Positions 3,185 to 51,807 of a DNA stretch of 52,338 nt are shown here, in pieces. A program made the translations under genes and the position numbers. Numbering within the stretch: position 1 is the stretch's first letter; each line of letters starts with the position of its first letter. The notes under the pieces are model-generated. The model saw only the letters and a list, made by a program, of their open reading frames with translations, did no database searches and had not been told where the DNA came from. The stretch lies in the IMG/VR virus record IMGVR_UViG_3300006638_000005, positions 1 to 52,338 of that record; one strand, 5' to 3'. Source of the DNA: a virus.

Positions 3185-4261
3185 CTACACTGGCGGCAGG
3201 ATCGAACTGAGATCGTGCGATTGCAGGAACTCGCCGCCCAGCGGAAAGCTGTACCCGCCGTTATAAACAAAAGGCTTCGGACTCGGCATGATCTCGTCGT
3301 CTTCCTTAATGCACTGGATCAGAGACAGCTTCCGCTCGCGCTCCATCTCGCCGCAATACTGTACCCAGTTGACACCCGACAGGTCCTTGAACCGCGTCGC
3401 GTTCGCCATCGCCCACTGGCCGGCGAACACCTTTGCCTGAAACGTGACAGCGTCGTCGAGCGCATACGACACTTGAGGCAGTTGCGTCGTCATGGTCAGG
3501 AGCGGACCTTTCGACACGTAGTTCGCCTGATACGTCGCCGGGTTCACCGGGTTCGGATACAGCTCGTACACGGGCTGCCCGAGCGAGTTGTGACCGTAGT
3601 ACGCCAGAATATACGCGTCACCCTGACCGCCGCGCTGCGGATCGATACGATTCAGCTCCTCCTGTGAGAAGTAGAGTTGCTTGCCGGTTATCGCGTACCC
3701 GTCGATCAGGTTCACGAGCGACAGGTAACGAGCAAACTGGCCGTCGTTGCCTGTTGACGTGACAGGTAAGAAAGGTGCCGCATAGTAGCACTTCAGCACC
3801 TGATAGTTGGCTCCGGTCGCCGACTGTTGCCCGTATGGCGCGTCGATGGTCATATTGCCCGCACCGTCCCACGCGACGATAGTGTAGTTCGGGCCTACAG
3901 GCGCGCTCAGACCGGTCGAGGACGTGCCGAGCCTGATCTGGTAGCCGACGCCAAGGACAGGTGACGCGAGCGGCGGGTTACCGAATGCAACCGTGTTAAG
4001 CGCGGCGGTCGCGGCTGCGTTCATTACAACCGCCGTGCTGTTGAAGGTGACGCTACAGGTACCGACGCTGATTACGGCGGGTACAAAAATCTGCCCGTTG
4101 CTTATGATCTGCCACGACCACATACGGTAGTCGTTGATGCGCTTCCAGGCGCGGTTGATAAGGCGTCCGGCCTGCGGGTCAGGTAAGGAAGCGATCTCGC
4201 CGGTCAGTTCCTTATAGAGCTGCTGGAACGTCAGGAGCGACCAGGAAGAAGTTTCAGCCAT
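3185..4261 (-). CDS. Putative head-tail adaptor/connector protein, 358 aa
   Basis: The N-terminal ~60 residues are helical (LYKELTGEIASLPDPQAGRL, then INRAWKRINDYRMWSWQI). They are followed by a beta segment of the kind ISVGTCSVTFNST, a layout typical of phage head-to-tail adaptor proteins that dock on the portal ring. The rest alternates beta sequence with a helical domain near residues 270-325. It sits downstream of the capsid genes in the late operon. No strong ribosome binding site is seen before the ATG. The adaptor role is inferred from architecture and order only. Confidence 0.5.
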   Translation of the reverse strand: MAETSSWSLLTFQQLYKELTGEIASLPDPQAGRLINRAWKRINDYRMWSWQIISNGQIFVPAVISVGTCSVTFNSTAVVMNAAATAALNTVAFGNPPLASPVLGVGYQIRLGTSSTGLSAPVGPNYTIVAWDGAGNMTIDAPYGQQSATGANYQVLKCYYAAPFLPVTSTGNDGQFARYLSLVNLIDGYAITGKQLYFSQEELNRIDPQRGGQGDAYILAYYGHNSLGQPVYELYPNPVNPATYQANYVSKGPLLTMTTQLPQVSYALDDAVTFQAKVFAGQWAMANATRFKDLSGVNWVQYCGEMERERKLSLIQCIKEDDEIMPSPKPFVYNGGYSFPLGGEFLQSHDLSSILPPV

Positions 4262-4276
4262 GGAGGCCGCCGCCGC

Positions 4277-4663
4277 TTAAGTGGCGAATCCGAAACAGAG
4301 CAGCCGAACCACTTCACCGGAAAGGTTGACAGCCGCCGCTACTTCAGCGCCGGTAGCCGCTACCGACCAGCGCAGAATCCATGTCTGGTTACCTGAACCC
4401 TGTGCGTATGCGCCAGCTTGAAACGCATCGACAGTGTAGGTGCCGCTGGTAGAGCCCGCAACGGATATGATCCCTTCGGGTGTGGTGCCAGGGCCGAGCT
4501 GTAACGTGATACCGGTCAGCGCCTGACCGCCCGTGGGAGCAGCAGGAGCGGCGCTGTTGACTACTTGCGTGTAACTGGCGGGTCCGGCGACTTCCACCAA
4601 TGTGTAAGGCCGGTCTCCCCACGCACCGTTACGCGGGGAATCGGCGAATTGTGTCAGTGCCAT
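4277..4663 (-). CDS. Hypothetical virion protein, 128 aa
   Basis: A short Ala/Gly/Thr-rich protein (MALTQFADSPRNGAWGDRP) predicted to be mostly beta, with no Cys cluster, membrane segment or catalytic motif. It lies between two structural genes with short gaps. A capsid decoration or head-completion role is possible, but the family is not recognised. Confidence 0.55.
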   Translation of the reverse strand: MALTQFADSPRNGAWGDRPYTLVEVAGPASYTQVVNSAAPAAPTGGQALTGITLQLGPGTTPEGIISVAGSTSGTYTVDAFQAGAYAQGSGNQTWILRWSVAATGAEVAAAVNLSGEVVRLLCFGFAT

Positions 4664-4669
4664 AGTCGT

Positions 4670-5347
4670 TTACGCTCCAGGATAATACTGCGGCCCGCCG
4701 ATACCAAGGAACACAGGCGAGATCGCGCCGACAACAGGAGGCCGATACCATGCGCGGCCAAGGACCTGCTTCAGGATACCGGCAGTAATCGTGTCCTGAG
4801 ACGCCGCGCTATCCGCGTAGATACCAGGTGTCGCGTCTACGTACACGAGGTCGGCCACTTGCGGCGAGAAGTTGTTGAGCGCACCGGACTTGAATTTGAC
4901 TTCGGCAATACCGGCAATCTGAAAGAACCAGTAGTTGCCTTTGGCCGTGTTCGCAAGCGCGATACCGAGGATCTGTCCCTGCGGCGCAGTGGTGCCGTCT
5001 GGTGTGATCCAGAAGTTTCCGCCCTGAAGGTCGCCGACGCCGGGAACCGCGAATCCAACCTGACCCTGCACGAACGCAGCGGCGGTAGAGTTCGGGTACG
5101 CCTGAAGATACTGGTAGTCGCCTGCGAACAGCAGCGGCCCGTTAATCGGGTCCGATAGTGCAGCAGCCTGAACTTCCCCCAGCGTCAGGATGCCGCCGAC
5201 CATGCCGCCATACGACTGCACGATGGAACCGGACACCTGCGACGTGGACACGAGCACGCCGGGCGCGGGGTCGCCCGCGTAACTTGCCGTGTTCAGGTAA
5301 CGCTGCGTGATAATTGGAGACTGATAAGCGCCTTTGTATGCCGGCAT
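4670..5347 (-). CDS. Hypothetical virion protein, possible capsid decoration, 225 aa
   Basis: The gene immediately after the major capsid protein, with an AAGGAG site before its ATG. The sequence (MPAYKGAYQSPIITQRYLN) is rich in Gly, Ala and beta-branched residues and has no membrane or catalytic signature. Position next to the capsid gene, size and composition suggest a head decoration or fibre protein. This is inference from context. Confidence 0.55.
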   Translation of the reverse strand: MPAYKGAYQSPIITQRYLNTASYAGDPAPGVLVSTSQVSGSIVQSYGGMVGGILTLGEVQAAALSDPINGPLLFAGDYQYLQAYPNSTAAAFVQGQVGFAVPGVGDLQGGNFWITPDGTTAPQGQILGIALANTAKGNYWFFQIAGIAEVKFKSGALNNFSPQVADLVYVDATPGIYADSAASQDTITAGILKQVLGRAWYRPPVVGAISPVFLGIGGPQYYPGA

Positions 5348-5372: not shown

Positions 5373-6566
5373 TTAGCTGCCCCAACCGTATCCCTGAACT
5401 CCGGTCCACGGCGCCACGTCTTCCACGTTCACCGCGGCCTTCAATTGGCTCGCGACGCGTGTGTTGTCCGGGGCGCGTATGAAGTCGGTAGGCATGAAGC
5501 CGAACTCCGACGACGCGCTCAACCTGAAGGCGATCCGCGACATGTTGAACATGCAGCCGACTTCGCCGACCGTGATGTTCGTATTGACCGGGAAGTTGCT
5601 CAACGTAGTCGGCGGCGTCACAAACGTTCCGGTCAGGTTGCTGCCGCCCGGATTGTTGGTCTTGCCGTACGCCGTAAAGCTGCTGGGGAAGTAGTCGTCC
5701 ACCATCACGATTAAGTTCTTGAACCGGAACCCCATCGCGCCGAAGAACGGGTCGCGAACCGACGAACCCTCTTGTCCAAATCGCTGCTGCTGCTGAATGC
5801 GGTTCTCGACGAAGTTGTTGAGCGGCTTGTTCATCGTGAACAGGTCGGGCTCGTCCTGGCCGCGTTTGGCTGTGATGTACATCGCGTTGATCTGCGCGTA
5901 CTGGATCGTGCCGACCGCGCCGGATGTCTGTCCGCCCCAGTAAGTGTTGCCGTTCAGGGCCGCGCCGATAGCGCCGTTCCGTTGAGCGGTGCCGTACGTG
6001 GTATACACGTTGCCGTCGTAGCTGGGGTCCACGCCGTTGTTCAGGAACTCGACCCAGCCATTCATGTTGATGGTGCGCGGCGCGATCTGACCGTTCTGTT
6101 GCAGGTCGAGCGCCATGATCGTGGACATGGTGAGGTAAGCGTTAGCCATGTCCGTTTCGAGCAGCGAGAAGACCGCGAGGTCGCCGGTGTTAAGGACCGA
6201 AATGTCTTCAAGGTACTCGATAACCATCACGACGTAGTAGCGAGGGTCGAACACGTTTGAGCTGATGGTCAGTGGCTTCGTCAGGTTAAACCCGCCGATG
6301 CCCTTGGCGTAAGCGCCGCCGTTCAGCGGCCCGTATAGTTGCAGGTTGCGCATGAATGCGCCGCCTTCGAACGGGACGAGACACTTGGAGCGCAGGTGAG
6401 CCTGGAAGACGGAGGACAGGAAAAATTCGTCCTCAATAGCATCCTGATTGACCTCGGGAAGCGTGGTCTCGTTAATCGGGTCCAGGAGCGGATCGGCGGC
6501 ACCGCGAATGGTCCCGTGGACCGCGAGCCACGCGATCAGTTGTTCATGTGTATAACGCGTCCGCAT
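5373..6566 (-). CDS. Major capsid protein
   Basis: A 397-aa protein beginning MRTRYTHEQLIAWLAVHGT, with an AGGAG site 8 bases before the chosen ATG; a TTG codon directly upstream is a less likely start. It follows the scaffold-like gene, as in many tailed phages. Features typical of HK97-fold coat proteins include an early helical arm (INETTLPEVNQDAIEDEFFL), a long central helical region and a C-terminal beta region ending in GFMPTDFIRAPDNTRVASQL. It forms the icosahedral shell. The call rests on size, order and overall character rather than a diagnostic motif. Confidence 0.8.
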   Translation of the reverse strand: MRTRYTHEQLIAWLAVHGTIRGAADPLLDPINETTLPEVNQDAIEDEFFLSSVFQAHLRSKCLVPFEGGAFMRNLQLYGPLNGGAYAKGIGGFNLTKPLTISSNVFDPRYYVVMVIEYLEDISVLNTGDLAVFSLLETDMANAYLTMSTIMALDLQQNGQIAPRTINMNGWVEFLNNGVDPSYDGNVYTTYGTAQRNGAIGAALNGNTYWGGQTSGAVGTIQYAQINAMYITAKRGQDEPDLFTMNKPLNNFVENRIQQQQRFGQEGSSVRDPFFGAMGFRFKNLIVMVDDYFPSSFTAYGKTNNPGGSNLTGTFVTPPTTLSNFPVNTNITVGEVGCMFNMSRIAFRLSASSEFGFMPTDFIRAPDNTRVASQLKAAVNVEDVAPWTGVQGYGWGS

Positions 6567-6578
6567 CAATAGTCTCCT

Positions 6579-7616
6579 TTAAGCTGCTTTTGTACCGCGC
6601 GATGCAAGGAACTTCGCCGCCGCCCGCTGCGCCCCGGTCGGGCCGCGATCACCGGTCTGCCTGACATGCTCACCCGGCTTGACACTCAAACTCGGGACCC
6701 CGCCGTGATCCGCAATAGCGGGCTTCTGCGGGTCCATGTCGAAAGTGCGGAACTGTGTTTTGAAAGCGCCGCTGATGCCGGGTCCGGTACCAAGGTCGGG
6801 TTGGTCGCGCTGACCGGTGACAACGTTGAGCGCGTCTTTCGAGCGCTTCTCCGCGTCCACCTTTTCGCGTTCCGACTCCCATCCGGCCTTCATAGCTTCG
6901 TCGCGCTTCTTCATGCGCAGGCCGGTGTCGCCGACAATCTCATACTTCTTTTCCCACACGTCGCGCAGCGACCCTTCGCCGGCGCGCGCCGACTTCAAGA
7001 TATCCTGCTGTTCGGCGAACGTCAGGTTCTTGCCGGTCAACTCGAAGTGTTCGCGTCCAATGTCGTTCCAGATAATAGGGAGCGACGCCATGGAGCCGAG
7101 TTCGGGGATCAGGGTCTTCGTAAACTTCTCTTCGACCTCTTTGGTGATGTCGGCGCGAAGAGTGGCGAGGCGTGTTTCGAGATCGTCGGTCGAGTCCACA
7201 ACCTTGCCTTTCTTGGCTGTCTCGATCAGGTCGGACATACCGGGCAGGTCGTCGTCGGTCAGCTCGTACTTTTCCTTGAGGATCGTGAACAGTTCCTTGG
7301 CGCGCGCGGTCGAGACCCGGTGCGTCGCAAGGTCTTTCATGATCTGCGCCTTTTCGGTGTCGGCGGCCTGAAGCTGCGTGCGGGTGGCGGCGAGTTGCTT
7401 TTCGAGGTCGGCGGATTTGGTACCAAGCTCTTTCTCTTTCGCGCTCAACGCCTGCGTTTTTTGCGTGTAATCGGCGGTGCGCGTGAAACCGCCAACGAAC
7501 CGGGTGGCCAGCGCCTCGTTCTTCGCGTACCGATCGCGCAGGAAGGTTGCCATTTCCGCGTCGTCGCCCGCCGCTTCCGCGATACAGCTTTCGAGAAGTG
7601 CCTTGTCTATTGCCAT
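6579..7616 (-). CDS. Putative capsid scaffolding protein
   Basis: A 345-aa highly charged protein with a long coiled coil (about residues 50-110, including TQKTQALSAKEKELGTKSAD and DLEKQLAATRTQLQAADTEK), helical sequence through the middle and a basic C-terminus (GAQRAAAKFLASRGTKAA). This composition and its place directly upstream of the major capsid gene are typical of internal scaffolds that guide procapsid assembly. It has an AAAGGA site before the ATG. No protease motif is seen. Confidence 0.7.
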   Translation of the reverse strand: MAIDKALLESCIAEAAGDDAEMATFLRDRYAKNEALATRFVGGFTRTADYTQKTQALSAKEKELGTKSADLEKQLAATRTQLQAADTEKAQIMKDLATHRVSTARAKELFTILKEKYELTDDDLPGMSDLIETAKKGKVVDSTDDLETRLATLRADITKEVEEKFTKTLIPELGSMASLPIIWNDIGREHFELTGKNLTFAEQQDILKSARAGEGSLRDVWEKKYEIVGDTGLRMKKRDEAMKAGWESEREKVDAEKRSKDALNVVTGQRDQPDLGTGPGISGAFKTQFRTFDMDPQKPAIADHGGVPSLSVKPGEHVRQTGDRGPTGAQRAAAKFLASRGTKAA

Positions 7617-7743: not shown

Positions 7744-8112
7744 TCACGCTAAAGTGTTGGGCTTCGGCGGTTCGGCCATGCCGGGGCTGGACACAATCGA
7801 CCTTTGTGCGCTGCGGATCGCTTCCGACGCGGCCCGTAAGGCTTTGGATGCCGTGGGGTAAGACTGCCCCATTTCGAGAAGCTGCGCTTCTATCGCCCGG
7901 AGCCCCTGAATGTCACCTTTGAGCTTCGCGTCGGCGGGGCTGGCGCCGTTACCGCCAGGTTGTCCGCCCTCCGCGCCCGAGCTGTCGGGAGAACCGCTGC
8001 CGGGAATACGTCCCGACGAGTTGGACCCGTCATCCTGCCCTTGAGCGGATGGAGCGTTCATGCCCGCGAGCATCGAGGGGGAGGCCGAAGCGGGAGAGTT
8101 GAGTTCAGGCAT
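7744..8112 (-). CDS. Hypothetical protein with disordered N-terminus, 122 aa
   Basis: The first ~55 residues are Ser/Gly/Pro-rich and probably disordered; the rest is a helical segment (LRAIEAQLLEMGQSYPTASK). It is the first sizeable gene after the terminator and tiny basic ORFs, upstream of the scaffold-like gene. There is no clear ribosome binding site, and a promoter candidate places the transcript start only ~11 bases from the ATG. A head-assembly cofactor is possible; the family is unknown. Confidence 0.5.
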   Translation of the reverse strand: MPELNSPASASPSMLAGMNAPSAQGQDDGSNSSGRIPGSGSPDSSGAEGGQPGGNGASPADAKLKGDIQGLRAIEAQLLEMGQSYPTASKALRAASEAIRSAQRSIVSSPGMAEPPKPNTLA

Positions 8113-8129
8113 CGCAAGTAAACGTTGAC

Positions 8130-8158
8130 GTTATACAAAGGGCCAGAGTTAAAGTTAA
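8130..8158 (-). promoter_or_regulatory. Sigma70-like promoter candidate for the capsid operon
   Basis: Reading the minus strand, TTAACT (8158-8153) and TATAAC (8135-8130) are separated by 17 bases and match the -35/-10 consensus at 4/6 and 5/6 positions. It lies downstream of a strong minus-strand terminator and just upstream of the 8112 gene, where a new transcript would be needed for capsid expression. Confidence 0.35.
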
Positions 8159-8218
8159 GGCTGAGCGTGATGGAGTCGAATCACCACGTCCAGCCTTGTC
8201 CCGAAGCGGCAGACAATA

Positions 8219-8263
8219 CTACCGCTTCTTCATTCGGCGCATGCCACGGCGTTTCTTTGCCAT
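8219..8263 (-). CDS. Tiny Arg/Lys-rich ORF, 14 aa
   Basis: An ATG-to-TAG frame encoding MAKKRRGMRRMKKR, almost entirely basic. It follows another tiny basic ORF by 15 bases. It lacks a convincing ribosome binding site, so translation would depend on coupling. Such peptides could bind DNA or RNA, but chance cannot be ruled out at this length. Confidence 0.25.
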   Translation of the reverse strand: MAKKRRGMRRMKKR

Positions 8264-8278
8264 AACGATGCGACGCAG

Positions 8279-30774: not shown

Positions 30775-31134
30775 ATGGCAATAACAATTACACGCGATTT
30801 CGCGCTTGCTGACAGATACCTTTACGATTTCAAGGTGCTGACAATATCAAAAGGCTGGGCGCAACTAGATACGCGACAGGACGCCGGTTATTTTGGTCAG
30901 TGGATCAACCCGACACGTCGCGAAATCTTCTGTTACTGCGAAGGGGACACGATACTGACTCGTTGCGATACGGACGCGGAGCTAGTAGCGGAACTGGAAC
31001 GAATCGAAACTTGGAACCGCGAGCAAGGATACGACGATTTCAGAATAGGGAAGCCTATCGCTATCGATCCGGGCTTCAGTGATGATCTGAAAGCAGCGTG
31101 TAATGCGGCCGGTCTAGCTGTATGGTTGCATTAG
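30775..31134 (+). CDS. Hypothetical protein, 119 aa
   Basis: The ATG gives MAITITRDFALADRYLYDFK; an upstream in-frame start adds only seven residues. The body is alpha/beta with an acidic helix (CDTDAELVAELERIETWNRE). Its end overlaps the integrase N-part by 13 bases. No motif or family is recognised. Confidence 0.5.
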   Translation: MAITITRDFALADRYLYDFKVLTISKGWAQLDTRQDAGYFGQWINPTRREIFCYCEGDTILTRCDTDAELVAELERIETWNREQGYDDFRIGKPIAIDPGFSDDLKAACNAAGLAVWLH

Positions 31135-31730
31135 CGCTTGCAACCGCGCGCGACTCGCTCGAATCGCGCGCGGTCGAATCCTGCCTTACATCGCTCGCGC
31201 CGGCGTCGCGTCGCGTCTATGCGGCTCGCATCCGAGACTACCTTGCATGGTCGCGTGGCTCTCCGCTGGACCGCGAACACGTCCAGCGTTACATGCGCGC
31301 GCTCGAACTACAAGCGGCGTCAGCACAAGTCCGAAACCAGGCTTTAGCGGCACTAAAGAAACTGGCCGGCGAAGCCGCGGAGCTGGCCTGGATAGAACAA
31401 TCCGCGGCGGCGCAAATAGGGCGCATCAAGGCGCGCCGCATCACAGGTATCAGGTCGGGCAAGTGGCTGACGCGCGATCAGGCACAACGGTTGCTCGCGG
31501 CGCCAGACCGCACAACGGTACAGGGCAGGCGTGACAGCGTGGTACTTGCGTTGCTGTTAGGGTGCGGCCTAAGGCGCGACGAAGCTGTAAGGCTGACATC
31601 GGCACAATGTATCGCGATGGACGGGCGCATGGTGCTGCGGAATGTCGAGGGTAAGGGCGGGCGCATCAGGTCCGTCAGCGTGCCCGGGTGGGCACAAACG
31701 ACAATCGAAAACTGGATAAAGGAGCTATAA
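31122..31730 (+). CDS. int: Tyrosine recombinase, N-terminal part (split integrase)
   Basis: 202 aa. Residues ~20-85 form the core-binding SAM-like domain (RRVYAARIRDYLAWSRGSPL). The catalytic domain then begins and carries the first Arg (ALLLGCGLRRDEAVRLTSAQ) and the beta-hairpin Lys (NVEGKGGRIRSVSVPG). The frame ends at NWIKEL-TAA, before the HxxR/Tyr half, which is encoded 310 bases downstream at 32043-32360. Together they hold a complete integrase. Whether two polypeptides assemble or RNA is processed is unknown. Confidence 0.75.
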   Translation: MVALALATARDSLESRAVESCLTSLAPASRRVYAARIRDYLAWSRGSPLDREHVQRYMRALELQAASAQVRNQALAALKKLAGEAAELAWIEQSAAAQIGRIKARRITGIRSGKWLTRDQAQRLLAAPDRTTVQGRRDSVVLALLLGCGLRRDEAVRLTSAQCIAMDGRMVLRNVEGKGGRIRSVSVPGWAQTTIENWIKEL

Positions 31731-31739
31731 GGATACGAC

Positions 31740-31943
31740 ATGAAAAATAGAACAAGCGCGACGGCCAGACGTAATGACCGGATACGTGATGAGCACGAAG
31801 CCAAGCTTGCACGCGGTTACGATCCGGCTGAACCGTGGAGCGATTACGCGTTGGATCAGGCGGCATGGCGCATATCCATCGGTACCGGGACGCAGGCGGA
31901 CAAAGATGCACTGGCACACCAGAGGGCCGAGGTGTCCAAATGA
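31740..31943 (+). CDS. Small protein inside the split integrase, 67 aa
   Basis: Starts MKNRTSATARRNDRIRDEHE with AAGGA upstream. A hydrophilic helical protein, in the same frame as both integrase halves but separated from them by stop codons. It overlaps the next small ORF as ATGA. It lies where the integrase gene is interrupted. No recognised family. Confidence 0.5.
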   Translation: MKNRTSATARRNDRIRDEHEAKLARGYDPAEPWSDYALDQAAWRISIGTGTQADKDALAHQRAEVSK

Positions 31944-32074
31944 CATCACCTCCATTTGCGGATCGGAATGCACAAACCGTAAAACGCCTGGTGCAAACAG
32001 GTGACGCGGAAATGGCTGGATTACAAGCAAAGTTACTCGTACATGACTGGCGGGTGGCTCTTGGCGAGATATAG
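31940..32074 (+). CDS. Small protein inside the split integrase, 44 aa
   Basis: Encodes MTSPPFADRNAQTVKRLVQT and a second helix (GLQAKLLVHDWRVALGEI). It is coupled to the 67-aa gene by ATGA and ends within the start region of the integrase C-part, which could be translated by reinitiation. Function unknown. Confidence 0.45.
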   Translation: MTSPPFADRNAQTVKRLVQTGDAEMAGLQAKLLVHDWRVALGEI

Positions 32075-32360
32075 CCTGGTACTGCGCGCCGTCCGACGCG
32101 ACGGCTCCATCAACGGTTCCCTCAGCTCGTCCGCCGTGCGCGACATCGTGCGGCGGTACGGGCGCGCTATTGGCGTGCCTGATCTCGCGCCGCATGACCT
32201 GAGACGGACAATGGCTAAACTTTCTCGCGAAGGTGGCGCGCCGATGGAAACGATCCAGAAGACGTTAGGTCACGCGAGCCTGCGGACGACTGAAATTTAC
32301 ACGGCCACTGGTGAAGAGGCGAACGCCGGCGACTTTCTGCGACTGGAAGGAGCGAAATGA
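32043..32360 (+). CDS. int: Tyrosine recombinase, C-terminal part (split integrase)
   Basis: 105 aa from ATG 32043 (a GTG at 32001 is the alternative). Homology begins around LVLRAVRRDGSINGSLSSSA and includes HDLR (HxxR), LGHAS (His) and EIYTAT (nucleophilic Tyr). With the N-part it supplies all six catalytic positions. It lacks a clear ribosome binding site and overlaps the 44-aa gene. The stop overlaps the next ATG. Confidence 0.7.
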   Translation: MTGGWLLARYSLVLRAVRRDGSINGSLSSSAVRDIVRRYGRAIGVPDLAPHDLRRTMAKLSREGGAPMETIQKTLGHASLRTTEIYTATGEEANAGDFLRLEGAK

Positions 32361-32578
32361 ACGAGTATTACACCGAATACCTGAAAACACACGGCACGCC
32401 CGCCGAGCTACGCGAGATCCTCGGTACAGGCTGGGGTATCTGCCGCCCGACACAGCGTAATCTGGAAAGGTACGCACGCTGCATCACCAAAAAGCAATAC
32501 GACGAGGCGAACCGGCTCGCGGTTGCGCGTCGTGTTGTAGCGTGTACATCGCGTCAAGTCAGTAGTCCGCTTCCCTGA
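32357..32578 (+). CDS. Hypothetical protein, 73 aa
   Basis: Starts MNEYYTEYLKTHGTPAELRE, coupled by ATGA to the integrase C-part. A hydrophilic helical protein whose last ~20 bases overlap the end of the opposing gene 32559-33416. No motif is recognised. It may be the last gene of the integrase operon. Confidence 0.5.
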   Translation: MNEYYTEYLKTHGTPAELREILGTGWGICRPTQRNLERYARCITKKQYDEANRLAVARRVVACTSRQVSSPLP

Positions 32579-33416
32579 ACTCGTCTTCGTGCGGCAGCTC
32601 CCGTTCCTGAACATCGTCCAATGGAGCTGCCGTTGTTGCCGTTTGTTCCGGCACAACTTCACCATAAAACAGCGCATGCATTTTCTCTTTGGTTTTAGCT
32701 CGTTTCTCGCGATCCTTGCGCCTGAACCCCGTAATCTTGCTGACGTGCGCATCCTCAAGCGCTTTGAACTCAGGCGAGTCCGGCAGCCCCATGAACGCAA
32801 TGATCGTGCCAAACTTGTCCCGCACAACGTCGCGCTTCGGGTTCGCGTAGTAAGGCACAAGGTTCTCGGGGTCGCCGCGATCCAGCTTCGGCAGTATACG
32901 CGTAACGGTCACTTCCAAGTCCGAGTGCCAGTGGTAATCTTCGTCAACGTAGTAGCGCGGCCTGAAGTTAGGGCAGTTCTCCGCGGCCAGCTTTCGCAGC
33001 AGCCGCGCAGGCTGGTCGCCTCCGGGCATTGTGAACGTCGCGGCACAACATTCGCACAGGTAAATCCACTGTTGCGTCGTCTCATCGCGGCACAATATCT
33101 GGAGCGCGCGACCATGCAGCACTTCGGGACCATCGGGGTCGTTTACGCGCTTCAGTCTGTTGCCCATCGGGCTGTAGAACCGCATTCCGGTCGCGTCAAC
33201 AGCGTTTGAGCGTAGTCGGCGAGCACAACCACAGCTATATCTACTCTTGTAGTAGGCTTGCGGGTAGGCCAGCACTACCTCGGTGCCGCAGTCGCAAACA
33301 CATACGATATCGCTCCACGATCCCGGTCTGGCTTGGCGCACAATTGTAAATAGAGTTCCGGTTAAACGCTGTTTCTCACTGAAAACATTACTGTTAGCTG
33401 CCATAATTGACATCAT
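32559..33416 (-). CDS. Cys-cluster protein, candidate regulator, 285 aa
   Basis: Starts MMSIMAANSNVFSEKQRLTG. It has two Cys-rich modules: VCVCDCGTEVV with SCGCAR (residues ~38-66), like the C-x-CG/SCGC zinc modules seen in phage HNH-associated proteins, and LCECC with a later Cys (~119-150). The C-terminal third is charged (FRRKDREKRAKTKEKMHALF). It is the only minus-strand gene in the right arm and is transcribed from one side of the 32-bp inverted repeat. No HNH residues or helix-turn-helix are clear; a DNA-binding regulator is inferred from context. Confidence 0.55.
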   Translation of the reverse strand: MMSIMAANSNVFSEKQRLTGTLFTIVRQARPGSWSDIVCVCDCGTEVVLAYPQAYYKSRYSCGCARRLRSNAVDATGMRFYSPMGNRLKRVNDPDGPEVLHGRALQILCRDETTQQWIYLCECCAATFTMPGGDQPARLLRKLAAENCPNFRPRYYVDEDYHWHSDLEVTVTRILPKLDRGDPENLVPYYANPKRDVVRDKFGTIIAFMGLPDSPEFKALEDAHVSKITGFRRKDREKRAKTKEKMHALFYGEVVPEQTATTAAPLDDVQERELPHEDEFREADY

Positions 33417-33421
33417 AACAT

Positions 33422-33541
33422 TATATTTAATTATATTGTAGCGCTAAGGTACCTCCGTTCACGCGCGGGCGCATTTTAAAAAGCTCTTTGGCGCGCATAC
33501 GTGAGAGACGGTACCTTAGCGCTACAATATAATTAAATATA
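33422..33541. promoter_or_regulatory. 32-bp perfect inverted repeat with outward promoters
   Basis: Arms 33422-33453 and 33510-33541 are exact reverse complements, separated by 56 bp. Each arm contains GGTACC, AGCGCT and a consensus TATAAT -10 element facing outward (33528-33533 on plus; 33435-33430 on minus). Matching -35 elements are weak, suggesting activator or repressor control. The arms drive the minus gene at 33416 and the plus gene at 33576. The spacer is GC-rich with a T4A5 core. Confidence 0.75.
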
Positions 33542-48501: not shown

Positions 48502-48833
48502 GAGACCACGAACTGTACGTCGCCGACTGCATCGACTGCCATAAGCCAGTCGAGTCGCGCACGCTGCCCGTACCGTTGCGCTGCACACGCTGCCGGACGG
48601 CGCTCGACGATAGCCTTAAGCCTACGGTCCTTAACCCTTTCGACCCGGACCAGATGGAAACGGCTGGCATCAGTGAACTGGGCCGCATGAACAAAGGCCA
48701 GTTGCGACGGTTGTCGGGTCCGCTGCTTGTAACGGAAGGCAAAGAGAAAGAGCGGCGTATCGCTATAGTCATGACTTTCGAACTGTACATGAAGATCCAG
48801 AAGGCAATTACAGATGTTCACAAATCCTTGTGA
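48498..48833 (+). CDS. Zinc-ribbon protein, 111 aa
   Basis: Starts MRDHELYVADCIDCHKPVES with a later CTRC, a CxxC...CxxC zinc ribbon. The C-terminal half is helical. Coupled to the nuclease gene (ATGA) and overlapping the UDG/exonuclease gene. Function unknown, probably replication-linked. Confidence 0.55.
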   Translation: MRDHELYVADCIDCHKPVESRTLPVPLRCTRCRTALDDSLKPTVLNPFDPDQMETAGISELGRMNKGQLRRLSGPLLVTEGKEKERRIAIVMTFELYMKIQKAITDVHKSL

Positions 48834-50202
48834 AACCTGCCCTCGCAAACACCGTGCGATAGGCGGCAATGGCCCGCAGCCCGCACGCGTACTCGCTATC
48901 GCGGAACGTCCGGGTCCGCGCGAGAACGAACGCGGCGAGGTACTGGTGGGACCGACCGGGCAGGAGTGGGACGAACTCTACTTGCCGCTCGCCGGGCTCA
49001 ACAGGTCCGAGATCCGGGTCTGTAATACGGTTATGTGCTGGGCCGACTCGAACAAGACACCGACCGACAAAGAGATTCAGGCTTGTGCGCCGTGTCACGT
49101 GCCCGACGAGATCGAGCGTACGAACCCGGACGTAATCGTGCTCATGGGCGCGACGGCCTGTGCGCTCGTGCCGGGTATCAGGCTTGACTACCAGCATGGA
49201 ATACCTCAATCGACCGCGAAGGTAGGTGACCTGTTCGGTTGGCACGGTTACTTGATTCCTATGTACCATCCGAGCATCGGCCTGCACGAGTCGCGCTTTA
49301 TGACTGTCGCAATGGAAGATTGGGAAGGGCTGAAGGACATCATAGGCGAAGACCACTTCGACGACGACCCGGAACCGGAACCCGTCAGTTACTCTGTATG
49401 GACGCCGCGCCATTCGTGGCTGTCCGGCGAGTACCCTGTAGGCATTGATACTGAGTCGCATGCGGGCGTTCCCTGGAGCGTACAGGTGTCCGGTATGCCG
49501 CGACACGGCGTGCTGTATATGGTTAGCGACAGCGCGGCAATGAAGCACTTGCGACTAATGCTGCCGAGTCAGCATAATATCGTGTTCCACCACGCTGCGC
49601 ACGACCTTGAAGAACTTCGCAAGGTGGGTATCGATATCGCGCCCGACCGGTACCGCGACACCATGCAGGAAGCCTTTCACCTGGGCAACCTGCCGCAAGG
49701 TCTTAAGGCGCTCACATACCGCCTGTTCCGGCACACTATGACATCGTATGAAGAAACGGTGCGCCCGGCCAGTGTCAGGGCGTTGCTCGAATGGATAACC
49801 GAAGCCTACCAGATCGCCGTGCTCGACCTGACGTACGTGTCGCAGCGGTTCAGCCCGAAAACAGGCAAGCGACTGAAGGACGAGACCACCAAGAGCGACC
49901 TGGAGTCGCTGTTGACGCGCCTGTTGCGGCTCACAACGGAAATGTCGGAGTACGACCCGTGGGGGTCTGAAGAGGAACCAAGGCTCAATGCGTTCTGGCG
50001 CGAGCCTGTAAACGAATGGATAGTGCAGCATGTTGAATCGCGTATCGGAACTTACCCCCTGGCAGGAATCGCTAATTGCTCAATGGACGAGGCAGTACGG
50101 TACGCAGTCGGTGACGCCGATTGGACGGGTAGGTGTGCTGTTGAGCTTGCCAGGAGGCGACAGGGAGCTTTCCAGATTTATGAAGGAGACAAAGATGCCT
50201 AA
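48814..50202 (+). CDS. Uracil-DNA glycosylase / 3'-5' exonuclease fusion
   Basis: 462 aa. Residues ~1-175 resemble family 4/5 uracil-DNA glycosylase: CETC, motif A (AERPGPRENERGEVLVGPTG), later Cys at 75, 91 and 94 for an iron-sulphur cluster, and HPS (152-154). Residues ~195-462 hold a DnaQ/PolA-type exonuclease: Exo I IDTE (Asp212, Glu214), Exo II near FHHAAHD (Asp264), Exo III YAVGD (Tyr430, Asp434). It would remove uracil and proofread for the separate polymerase at 50341-51807. Confidence 0.75.
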   Translation: MFTNPCETCPRKHRAIGGNGPQPARVLAIAERPGPRENERGEVLVGPTGQEWDELYLPLAGLNRSEIRVCNTVMCWADSNKTPTDKEIQACAPCHVPDEIERTNPDVIVLMGATACALVPGIRLDYQHGIPQSTAKVGDLFGWHGYLIPMYHPSIGLHESRFMTVAMEDWEGLKDIIGEDHFDDDPEPEPVSYSVWTPRHSWLSGEYPVGIDTESHAGVPWSVQVSGMPRHGVLYMVSDSAAMKHLRLMLPSQHNIVFHHAAHDLEELRKVGIDIAPDRYRDTMQEAFHLGNLPQGLKALTYRLFRHTMTSYEETVRPASVRALLEWITEAYQIAVLDLTYVSQRFSPKTGKRLKDETTKSDLESLLTRLLRLTTEMSEYDPWGSEEEPRLNAFWREPVNEWIVQHVESRIGTYPLAGIANCSMDEAVRYAVGDADWTGRCAVELARRRQGAFQIYEGDKDA

Positions 50203-50341
50203 ACCACCCGAAAGACACTGCTATTCATGCGTCAGGTGTTTGCCTGACGACCCCAAAGAAGTATGGTGGGGTGAATCCGGGCAGCCCTACTGCTCCGAAG
50301 ACTGCATGAACGACAACGATGATGCACCGGAAGAAGACTGA
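50195..50341 (+). CDS. Zinc-binding mini-protein, 48 aa
   Basis: ATG 50195 with GGAG upstream. Encodes MPKPPERHCYSCVRCLPDDP and CSEDC, giving several Cys for a zinc site. It lies between the exonuclease and polymerase genes, overlapping the first by 8 bases and touching the second. It may bridge or regulate the two. Confidence 0.6.
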   Translation: MPKPPERHCYSCVRCLPDDPKEVWWGESGQPYCSEDCMNDNDDAPEED

Positions 50342-51807
50342 TGGCGCTATACGGCGGCATCGAGCTTCCTAACAAACCGGATTTGGAGAACGTCCGCAAG
50401 CTGGACCTGATGATACTCGGCCAGCTTAACCGGATGTCGCGTTACGGGATCGCCGTGGACGTGCCCTACCTTCAAGAACTTGGGAGCCAGTTCGCCGTTG
50501 AAATGAAGGAACTGCAATATAGCATAGCCAGCTATATTCCGACCGACGCACTGGATCGTTTCAGCGCGGCGGCGGCATCCGTCGAAGAAGAAGAAGGGTC
50601 CGCGCAGATAAACGCCGGGTCCGCCGAACAGATACGTACGTTGCTGTTCGACTTGTTGGACGTTGGGCGCGACCAGAAACTGAAGACTACAGGCACGGGA
50701 GCGATCTCGACAGGCAAAAAGAACCTGGACACGCTACGGTCGGTTAAAGACGCGCATCCCGTGATCCCGCTCATCATGCAGTACCGGGAACGGTCTAAGC
50801 TGAAGTCGGCGTTCTGCGACGCCTTACCAATGAAGGCGCGGCACCATCCGGCAGGAGCGTGTTGCCCGGTATGTGAATTGCCGCATGTAGAGAGTACAAA
50901 CAGGCTGCACACTACATTTACGACGACACGCGCGATCACCGGGCGCCTCAGCAGTAAACAGCCTAACCTCCAGCAGATAAGCGTCAGGACAAAATTAGGA
51001 CGCCGCATCAGAGCCGCTTTTCTGGCTTCACCCGGTACCCGTCTTGTCTCAGTGGACTTTTCGCAAATGGAACTACGCGACCTTGCGCATCTTGCGAACG
51101 CTCGATCCATGCTCTCTATTTACGAGGCGGGCGGCGATATTCATAAAAATACGGCAATGAAGTCGTTTGGCATAACGGACCCTGAACAGGTAGACCAGTA
51201 TATGCATCGGCTTCCAGCTAAGACAGTCAACTTTGCGATCACCAACGGTACAACAAAAAAAGGACTGTACGCGCAGCTTATAGGGTCTTATTGGCTTGCC
51301 GGGATAAAGCCACCCGACTGGCTCACAGAAGACTGGTGCGATGACTTTATACGGTCGTGGCACGTTACATACGACGAGGTTCAGCCTTACTTCGACATAA
51401 CTTATTACAGGGCGCGAAGGTATGGTTTCTGTTGGAACCCGTGGGGCCGCGTCAGGTATATCCCGCAAGTCAAAAGCAGCTTACCGTGGAAAGTACACGA
51501 AGGACTTAGAGAAGCGCAGAATTTCGCGGTAACGTCATCGAATGCAGAGCAAACGAAGCTCGCAATGGCGGAATGCGAAGACTTTTATACGCAAATGCGC
51601 GAATCAGGCATATGGTGCGAGGGGCTTTTGAGTATACATGACCAGGTAATTGCGGAAGTGGAAGAAGACTATGCGGACCTGGTCGGAGCCGAGATGGTAC
51701 GCATATTCGAAGGCGTCATGGACGACCGCGAGACGGGCGAGCGACTTTGGCGTTGCCCTATTAAGAGCGACTGTGAAATTCTGGAACGCTGGAAAGCAAA
51801 GGACTGA
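50341..51807 (+). CDS. Family A DNA polymerase (polymerase domain only)
   Basis: 488 aa. Motif A SVDFSQMELR (catalytic Asp239); motif B RLPAKTVNFAITNG (Arg290, Lys294, Phe298); motif C SIHDQV (Asp434). The first ~150 residues are too short for an exonuclease domain, which lies on the 48814 gene instead. Unusual points: Asn302 replaces the usual Tyr of motif B, and Gln435 replaces the Glu of HDE in motif C. A short Cys-rich insert (ACCPVCELPH) precedes the TGRLSS motif. It probably replicates phage DNA. Confidence 0.85.
   Translation: MALYGGIELPNKPDLENVRKLDLMILGQLNRMSRYGIAVDVPYLQELGSQFAVEMKELQYSIASYIPTDALDRFSAAAASVEEEEGSAQINAGSAEQIRTLLFDLLDVGRDQKLKTTGTGAISTGKKNLDTLRSVKDAHPVIPLIMQYRERSKLKSAFCDALPMKARHHPAGACCPVCELPHVESTNRLHTTFTTTRAITGRLSSKQPNLQQISVRTKLGRRIRAAFLASPGTRLVSVDFSQMELRDLAHLANARSMLSIYEAGGDIHKNTAMKSFGITDPEQVDQYMHRLPAKTVNFAITNGTTKKGLYAQLIGSYWLAGIKPPDWLTEDWCDDFIRSWHVTYDEVQPYFDITYYRARRYGFCWNPWGRVRYIPQVKSSLPWKVHEGLREAQNFAVTSSNAEQTKLAMAECEDFYTQMRESGIWCEGLLSIHDQVIAEVEEDYADLVGAEMVRIFEGVMDDRETGERLWRCPIKSDCEILERWKAKD

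Follow-up and report, generated by a model that had tools for sequence, protein, structure and literature searches.

Results

An integrase gene in two pieces

The window, that is, the whole stretch of DNA analysed here, is a phage record of 52,338 bp. It carries, as two ORFs on one strand, the halves of a tyrosine recombinase, an enzyme that breaks and rejoins DNA at defined sites; between the halves lie two small ORFs, to which we refer, together with the genes found at this place in other phages, as cargo. The features of the locus are as follows:

31122–31730, plus strand: N half of a tyrosine recombinase, ORF of 202 aa (PF00589 positions 1–84, E 2e-9)
31719–31724 and 31729–31733, plus strand: Shine-Dalgarno-like AAGGAG and AAGGA at the end of the N half, upstream of ORF1, read from the sequence
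31740–31943, plus strand: cargo ORF1, 67 aa, no known family
31940–32074, plus strand: cargo ORF2, 44 aa, no known family
32061–32360, plus strand: C half of a tyrosine recombinase, 99 aa from the putative start TTG 32061 (PF00589 positions 103–168, E 1.3e-12)

Each half scores above the Pfam cut-off for Phage_integrase and matches a different part of the profile. The N half comprises a SAM-like DNA-binding domain, recognised by a weak match to its N-terminal region, and the first half of the catalytic domain with the Arg (in GLRR) and the Lys (in GKGG), and the C half carries the HxxR box (HDLR), the His (LGH) and the catalytic Tyr. The window residues align with R173, H289, R292, W315 (His in the window) and Y324 of Cre; the catalytic Lys was assigned from the invariant GK motif, the automatic alignment having failed to put Cre K201 there. 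The first-pass annotation had described an integrase in two same-strand ORFs with all six catalytic residues kept, and two small ORFs with translation signals between them. Both recombinase ORFs are real, and the gap of 312–330 nt holds ORF1, preceded by the Shine-Dalgarno-like motifs, and ORF2, the start of which overlaps the stop of ORF1 (ATGA). The C half lacks a strong Shine-Dalgarno motif and has three candidate starts, GTG 32001 (that of the ORF list), ATG 32043 and TTG 32061; judged by the length and overlap of relatives, TTG 32061 fits best as the predicted, not the certain, start.

Just 5' of the N half, an ORF at 30775–31134 matches only positions 195–305 of the 305-aa phrog_24512 (E 2e-32), and this gene may also be a truncated or split form.

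The same layout with other cargo in related phages

Relatives were found by pattern-based scans of viral contigs, and the order N half, cargo, C half was present in five more phage contigs:

L003: N half 3555–4193, cargo of 261 aa, C half 4947–5237
L030: N half 4113–4769, cargo of 82 aa, C half 4989–5273
L034: N half 6283–6918, cargo of three ORFs, C half 7989–8273
L038: N half 616–1272, cargo of 190 aa with Ala-rich repeats, C half 1828–2130
L016: N half 38–739, cargo of 66 aa, C half 940–1179

The recurrence of the split arrangement across six contigs is far beyond chance. Throughout the six split phages, the halves lie within phage contigs in the same orientation, 200–1070 bp apart, and every record has a single N half and a single C half. 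No second Phage_integrase (PF00589) match was found in these records; some of the genomes are possibly incomplete, and there an intact recombinase may lie beyond the contig. In L044, the N half stops at the equivalent position, an ORF that overlaps it comes next, and the contig ends before any C half; a scan of viral contigs for a relative of L044 that would reveal its C half found none. The record L080 was considered as a further split phage and rejected, as it carries two separate whole integrases. A sequencing error that restores a single frame, which the first-pass annotation had named as a reason to abandon the split, is excluded by the six contigs with their differing cargo and by the L034 junction, which is identical in two samples.

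The cargo varies between phages in sequence and length (200–1070 nt). The window ORFs and the L003 cargo ORF showed no similarity to other cargo ORFs among the loci with which they were compared, and ORF1 of the window had no homologue in any of the related records. Only two repeat-rich cargo ORFs have PHROG matches, and known families are otherwise nearly absent: searches for a cargo function in Pfam, PHROG, PADLOC and the phage collection gave no match besides weak or repeat-family ones, and none of the cargo ORFs that were checked for a homing endonuclease matched an endonuclease entry in Pfam, PHROG or PADLOC. The single-sequence model of the L003 cargo is uninformative (mean pLDDT 33.5). 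The G+C content of the cargo is below that of the halves in five of the six split phages.

The PHROG families 7269, 25190 and 23271, which match the C half, are only 67–109 positions long, so that phage databases already contain stand-alone C-terminal integrase fragments, which may mask other split recombinases.

Conservation and selection on both halves

The residues by which the family is recognised, namely Arg, Lys, His-x-x-Arg, His/Trp and Tyr, are distributed across the two halves in every split phage, with Arg, Lys, His, Arg, His and Tyr all present in each of the six N and C pairs, and the joined halves align to whole integrases with no conserved catalytic column missing. The C halves are 58–70% identical among the split phages (66–68% between the window and L003, L030, L034 and L038), and the N half of the window is 48–61% identical to those of L003 and L030. 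The dN/dS of the C half is about 0.15–0.25 where computable, with synonymous sites near saturation, and the ratio of C to N divergence is 0.72 in split pairs versus 0.94 in intact pairs, indicating no relaxation on the C half. By these measures, purifying selection acts on both halves. The first-pass annotation had taken retention of the catalytic residues as an argument against simple decay and free decay of the C part as a counter-sign; no such decay was seen, and among the split phages it is the C half that is conserved more strongly than its N partner.

Position of the break and translation signals

The breaks fall within the catalytic domain, in the linker between the helix that follows the beta-hairpin and the helix that precedes the HxxR box. 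Aligned to P1 Cre, the break lies just before Lys244/Asn245 in five phages and just after it in L016. Cre split by engineering at K244/N245, which has activity comparable to the wild type without dimerising tags (PMC5633763), likewise consists of two chains with the break in this same linker; unlike the phage locus it is man-made, the natural breaks lying a few residues to either side and having other genes between the halves. In a read-through model of the window locus, both halves fold confidently (most blocks above 83), and the model matches the structures of IntI, Cre, XerA and XerH. This model, which joins the halves artificially and was built from an alignment that included whole homologues, shows predicted halves that are compatible with one fold and is no proof of assembly.

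In each of the six split phages, the C half starts −15 to +4 nt from the final base of the stop codon of the cargo (with TTG 32061 taken for the window), and GGAG/AGGA-type motifs are found in the N-half tail before the cargo start, in the split relatives as well. This spacing and these motifs suggest a single operon with translational coupling. No terminator-like site was found on the plus strand within the locus.

Lineage and probable history of the fission

The nine records belong to a single phage lineage. A DNA polymerase is common to all of them, at 45–74% identity to that of the window, and a terminase is present in six records including the window, the other five being 52–77% identical and three short contigs giving no match. 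The polymerase of the window appears as two ORFs, 48814–50202 (glycosylase/exonuclease-like, by eye) and 50341–51807 (polymerase domain, phrog_17), and a separate polymerase ORF is common to all nine related records.

By polymerase and terminase, the nearest relative of the window is L032, the integrase of which is a single uninterrupted ORF. The integrase of L042 is also whole, in a record with a second integrase, and the gene is unbroken in nine more distant relatives. The comparison with intact integrases of relatives that had been suggested in the first-pass annotation thus finds the unbroken state in L032 and L042. These single-chain integrases and those of Acidobacteria and Deinococcus plasmids are of the same family, have the same catalytic residues and are the nearest sequence relatives of the split enzyme, from which they differ in being one uninterrupted polypeptide.

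In the polymerase tree, L032 falls within a clade with five split phages (support 100/99), and L016 is placed just outside it at 98/96; the integrase tree groups L032 with all six split phages (92/91). Support within the clade is modest, and an integrase tree constrained to one split clade was not rejected (AU p 0.10). Scans of genome contigs found no bacterial relatives. The ancestral linker (AAGIxDG-like) is kept in L032 and in the N half of L016 and is lost in the other five split phages. The simplest reading of these sequences would be at least two fissions, one in L016 and one in the group of five, and later turnover of the cargo at an existing gap; L044 may represent a third fission. Because the N halves of the split phages are only 39–61% identical, the fission is old, and the recent insertion of a small module proposed at first pass does not hold for the break itself; it does capture the behaviour of the cargo, which varies between phages and appears recent in L034.

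In L034, an exact 62-bp direct repeat occupies 6841–6902 and 7512–7573, its copies 671 bp apart. The first copy is the last 62 bp of the N half before its tail, and the second, inside the cargo region, runs to a stop codon that overlaps the start of an apparently older cargo ORF. L039, from another sample, is identical to L034 over 765 bp across the junction, repeat included. The repeat suggests a second, recent gain of cargo at the split point, that is, turnover.

Discussion

We consider it likely, with good confidence, that the locus encodes a functional tyrosine recombinase made of two polypeptides, which arose by gene fission and would be translated from one operon. The conservation of both halves in six or more environmental phages makes it very probable that the enzyme acts as a complex of two chains; among the options raised at first pass, the two-polypeptide recombinase is the one favoured by the conserved split and by selection on both halves in six phages. 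In our model, an ancestral single-chain integrase gene would have been broken in the linker before the HxxR-box helix, and unrelated small genes would have lodged in the gap. One operon would supply both halves, their translation being coupled through the cargo ORFs, and the two would assemble non-covalently into a normal Cre/Xer-like protomer. We infer co-translation, assembly and recombination activity from the sequences, and reassembly into an active enzyme is suggested by conservation and by the split-Cre precedent.

Decay of the locus to a pseudogene, whereby an insertion disrupted the integrase and left the halves as remnants, is very unlikely: the gene is interrupted and has no known activity, but in six widely diverged phages the halves remain conserved and their catalytic residues intact, dN/dS is far below 1, and the C half retains a start of its own beside the cargo stop. 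We give slightly less credence still to RNA splicing, in which a group I, group II or new intron would restore a single reading frame, an option that the first-pass annotation had also listed. The N and C halves share a frame in the window, L003, L030 and L038, as splicing would have it, but they are in differing frames in L034 and L016. No conserved ribozyme core of a group I or II intron was recognised with Rfam, which gave no match at its gathering score for the window or for seven loci and none up to E 5 for the insert of the window, in agreement with the first-pass remark that no clear group I core was visible. Moreover, the RNA stability of the insert is ordinary (z −1.84), the cargo sequences and lengths differ, as does the split position in L016, and five phages have lost residues of the ancestral linker, which an intron would have left in place.

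Programmed excision of the cargo from the DNA, in the style of SSV-type suicidal integrases or developmental elements, would also rebuild a whole gene and strikes us as no more credible than splicing. The exact 62-bp repeat of L034 does flank part of the cargo, but recombination between its copies still leaves the gene split; no repeats of at least 12 nt bound the cargo in the other split phages, and the short microhomologies by which an open frame could be restored are not the same from phage to phage and would produce abnormal linkers. Archaeal suicidal integrases of the SSV, pTN3 and pT26-2 type do occur naturally as int(N) and int(C) gene halves, the gene being split when the element integrates at an att site within it; the halves come to lie one at each end of the provirus and are considered inactive (PMC8371274). 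The phage halves, in contrast, are 200–1070 bp apart in one operon and conserved, and assignment to the SSV type was rejected since they do not mark the opposite ends of an integrated element. Least probable of all are separate non-recombinase roles for the two halves, such as that of a DNA-binding regulator for the N half: its predicted DNA-binding domain could bind alone, but the catalytic residues, unneeded for non-catalytic roles, are invariant in all six pairs.

For a two-polypeptide recombinase born of gene fission, the nearest precedent by analogy would be the genes-in-pieces enzymes such as the ribonucleotide reductase of Aeh1. Phage enzymes of this kind are NrdA of Aeromonas phage Aeh1 (split by mobE), the T4 topoisomerase gp39/gp60 (mobA) and the phage 25 DNA polymerase gp43A/43B (PMC2988022). 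As in these cases, inserted DNA divides the gene of a conserved phage enzyme into two ORFs, with no sign of splicing; each piece is an ORF with a start of its own, no intron family was recognised, and the stop–start overlap between cargo and enzyme suggests translational coupling. The pieces of the known enzymes stay functional (PMC2988022), as those of the split integrase probably do. The integrase belongs to another enzyme class, its fission probably occurred more than once within the lineage, and its cargo differs from phage to phage and has no recognisable homing endonuclease, which sets it apart from the Aeh1 subtype and not from genes-in-pieces in general. More tentatively, we speculate that the recombinase is obligately two-chain, that the fission point is a lasting docking site for changing cargo, and that translation of the C half is coupled to the cargo, tuning recombinase assembly and hence the integration decision; we regard this fuller scenario as possible but rather doubtful.

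Our search of the open-access literature yielded no account of a tyrosine recombinase that occurs naturally as two polypeptides; subscription papers were mostly outside this search. Engineers already split Cre in this linker as a tool, and the phage enzyme, if active, would be a ready-made split recombinase. Its activity would also suggest that homing endonucleases are not needed for a phage to have one of its key enzymes divided, and would be a warning that integrases annotated as 'broken' in phages may in fact be whole enzymes. With its uninterrupted gene, the sister phage L032 allows a direct side-by-side test.

Finally, we note several features around the integrase. A partial repeat (31002–31035 and 31703–31739) was considered as an att core and rejected, nothing comparable being present in the relatives. 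A minus-strand gene at 32559–33416 has CxCG...SCGC cysteine motifs and a weak HNH-family match; its counterpart adjoins the integrase in L003, L030, L034 and L032 and is repeated in L032. Directly upstream of this gene, about 1.1 kb past the integrase, lies a large inverted repeat (33422–33541) with 51-nt arms and a DNA fold z of −8.96, the sole one of such size in the window, which may be an att site, an origin or an operator. Inverted repeats of other sequence are found at the equivalent place in L003 (6153–6290), L034 (9179–9333) and L032 (9750–9862).
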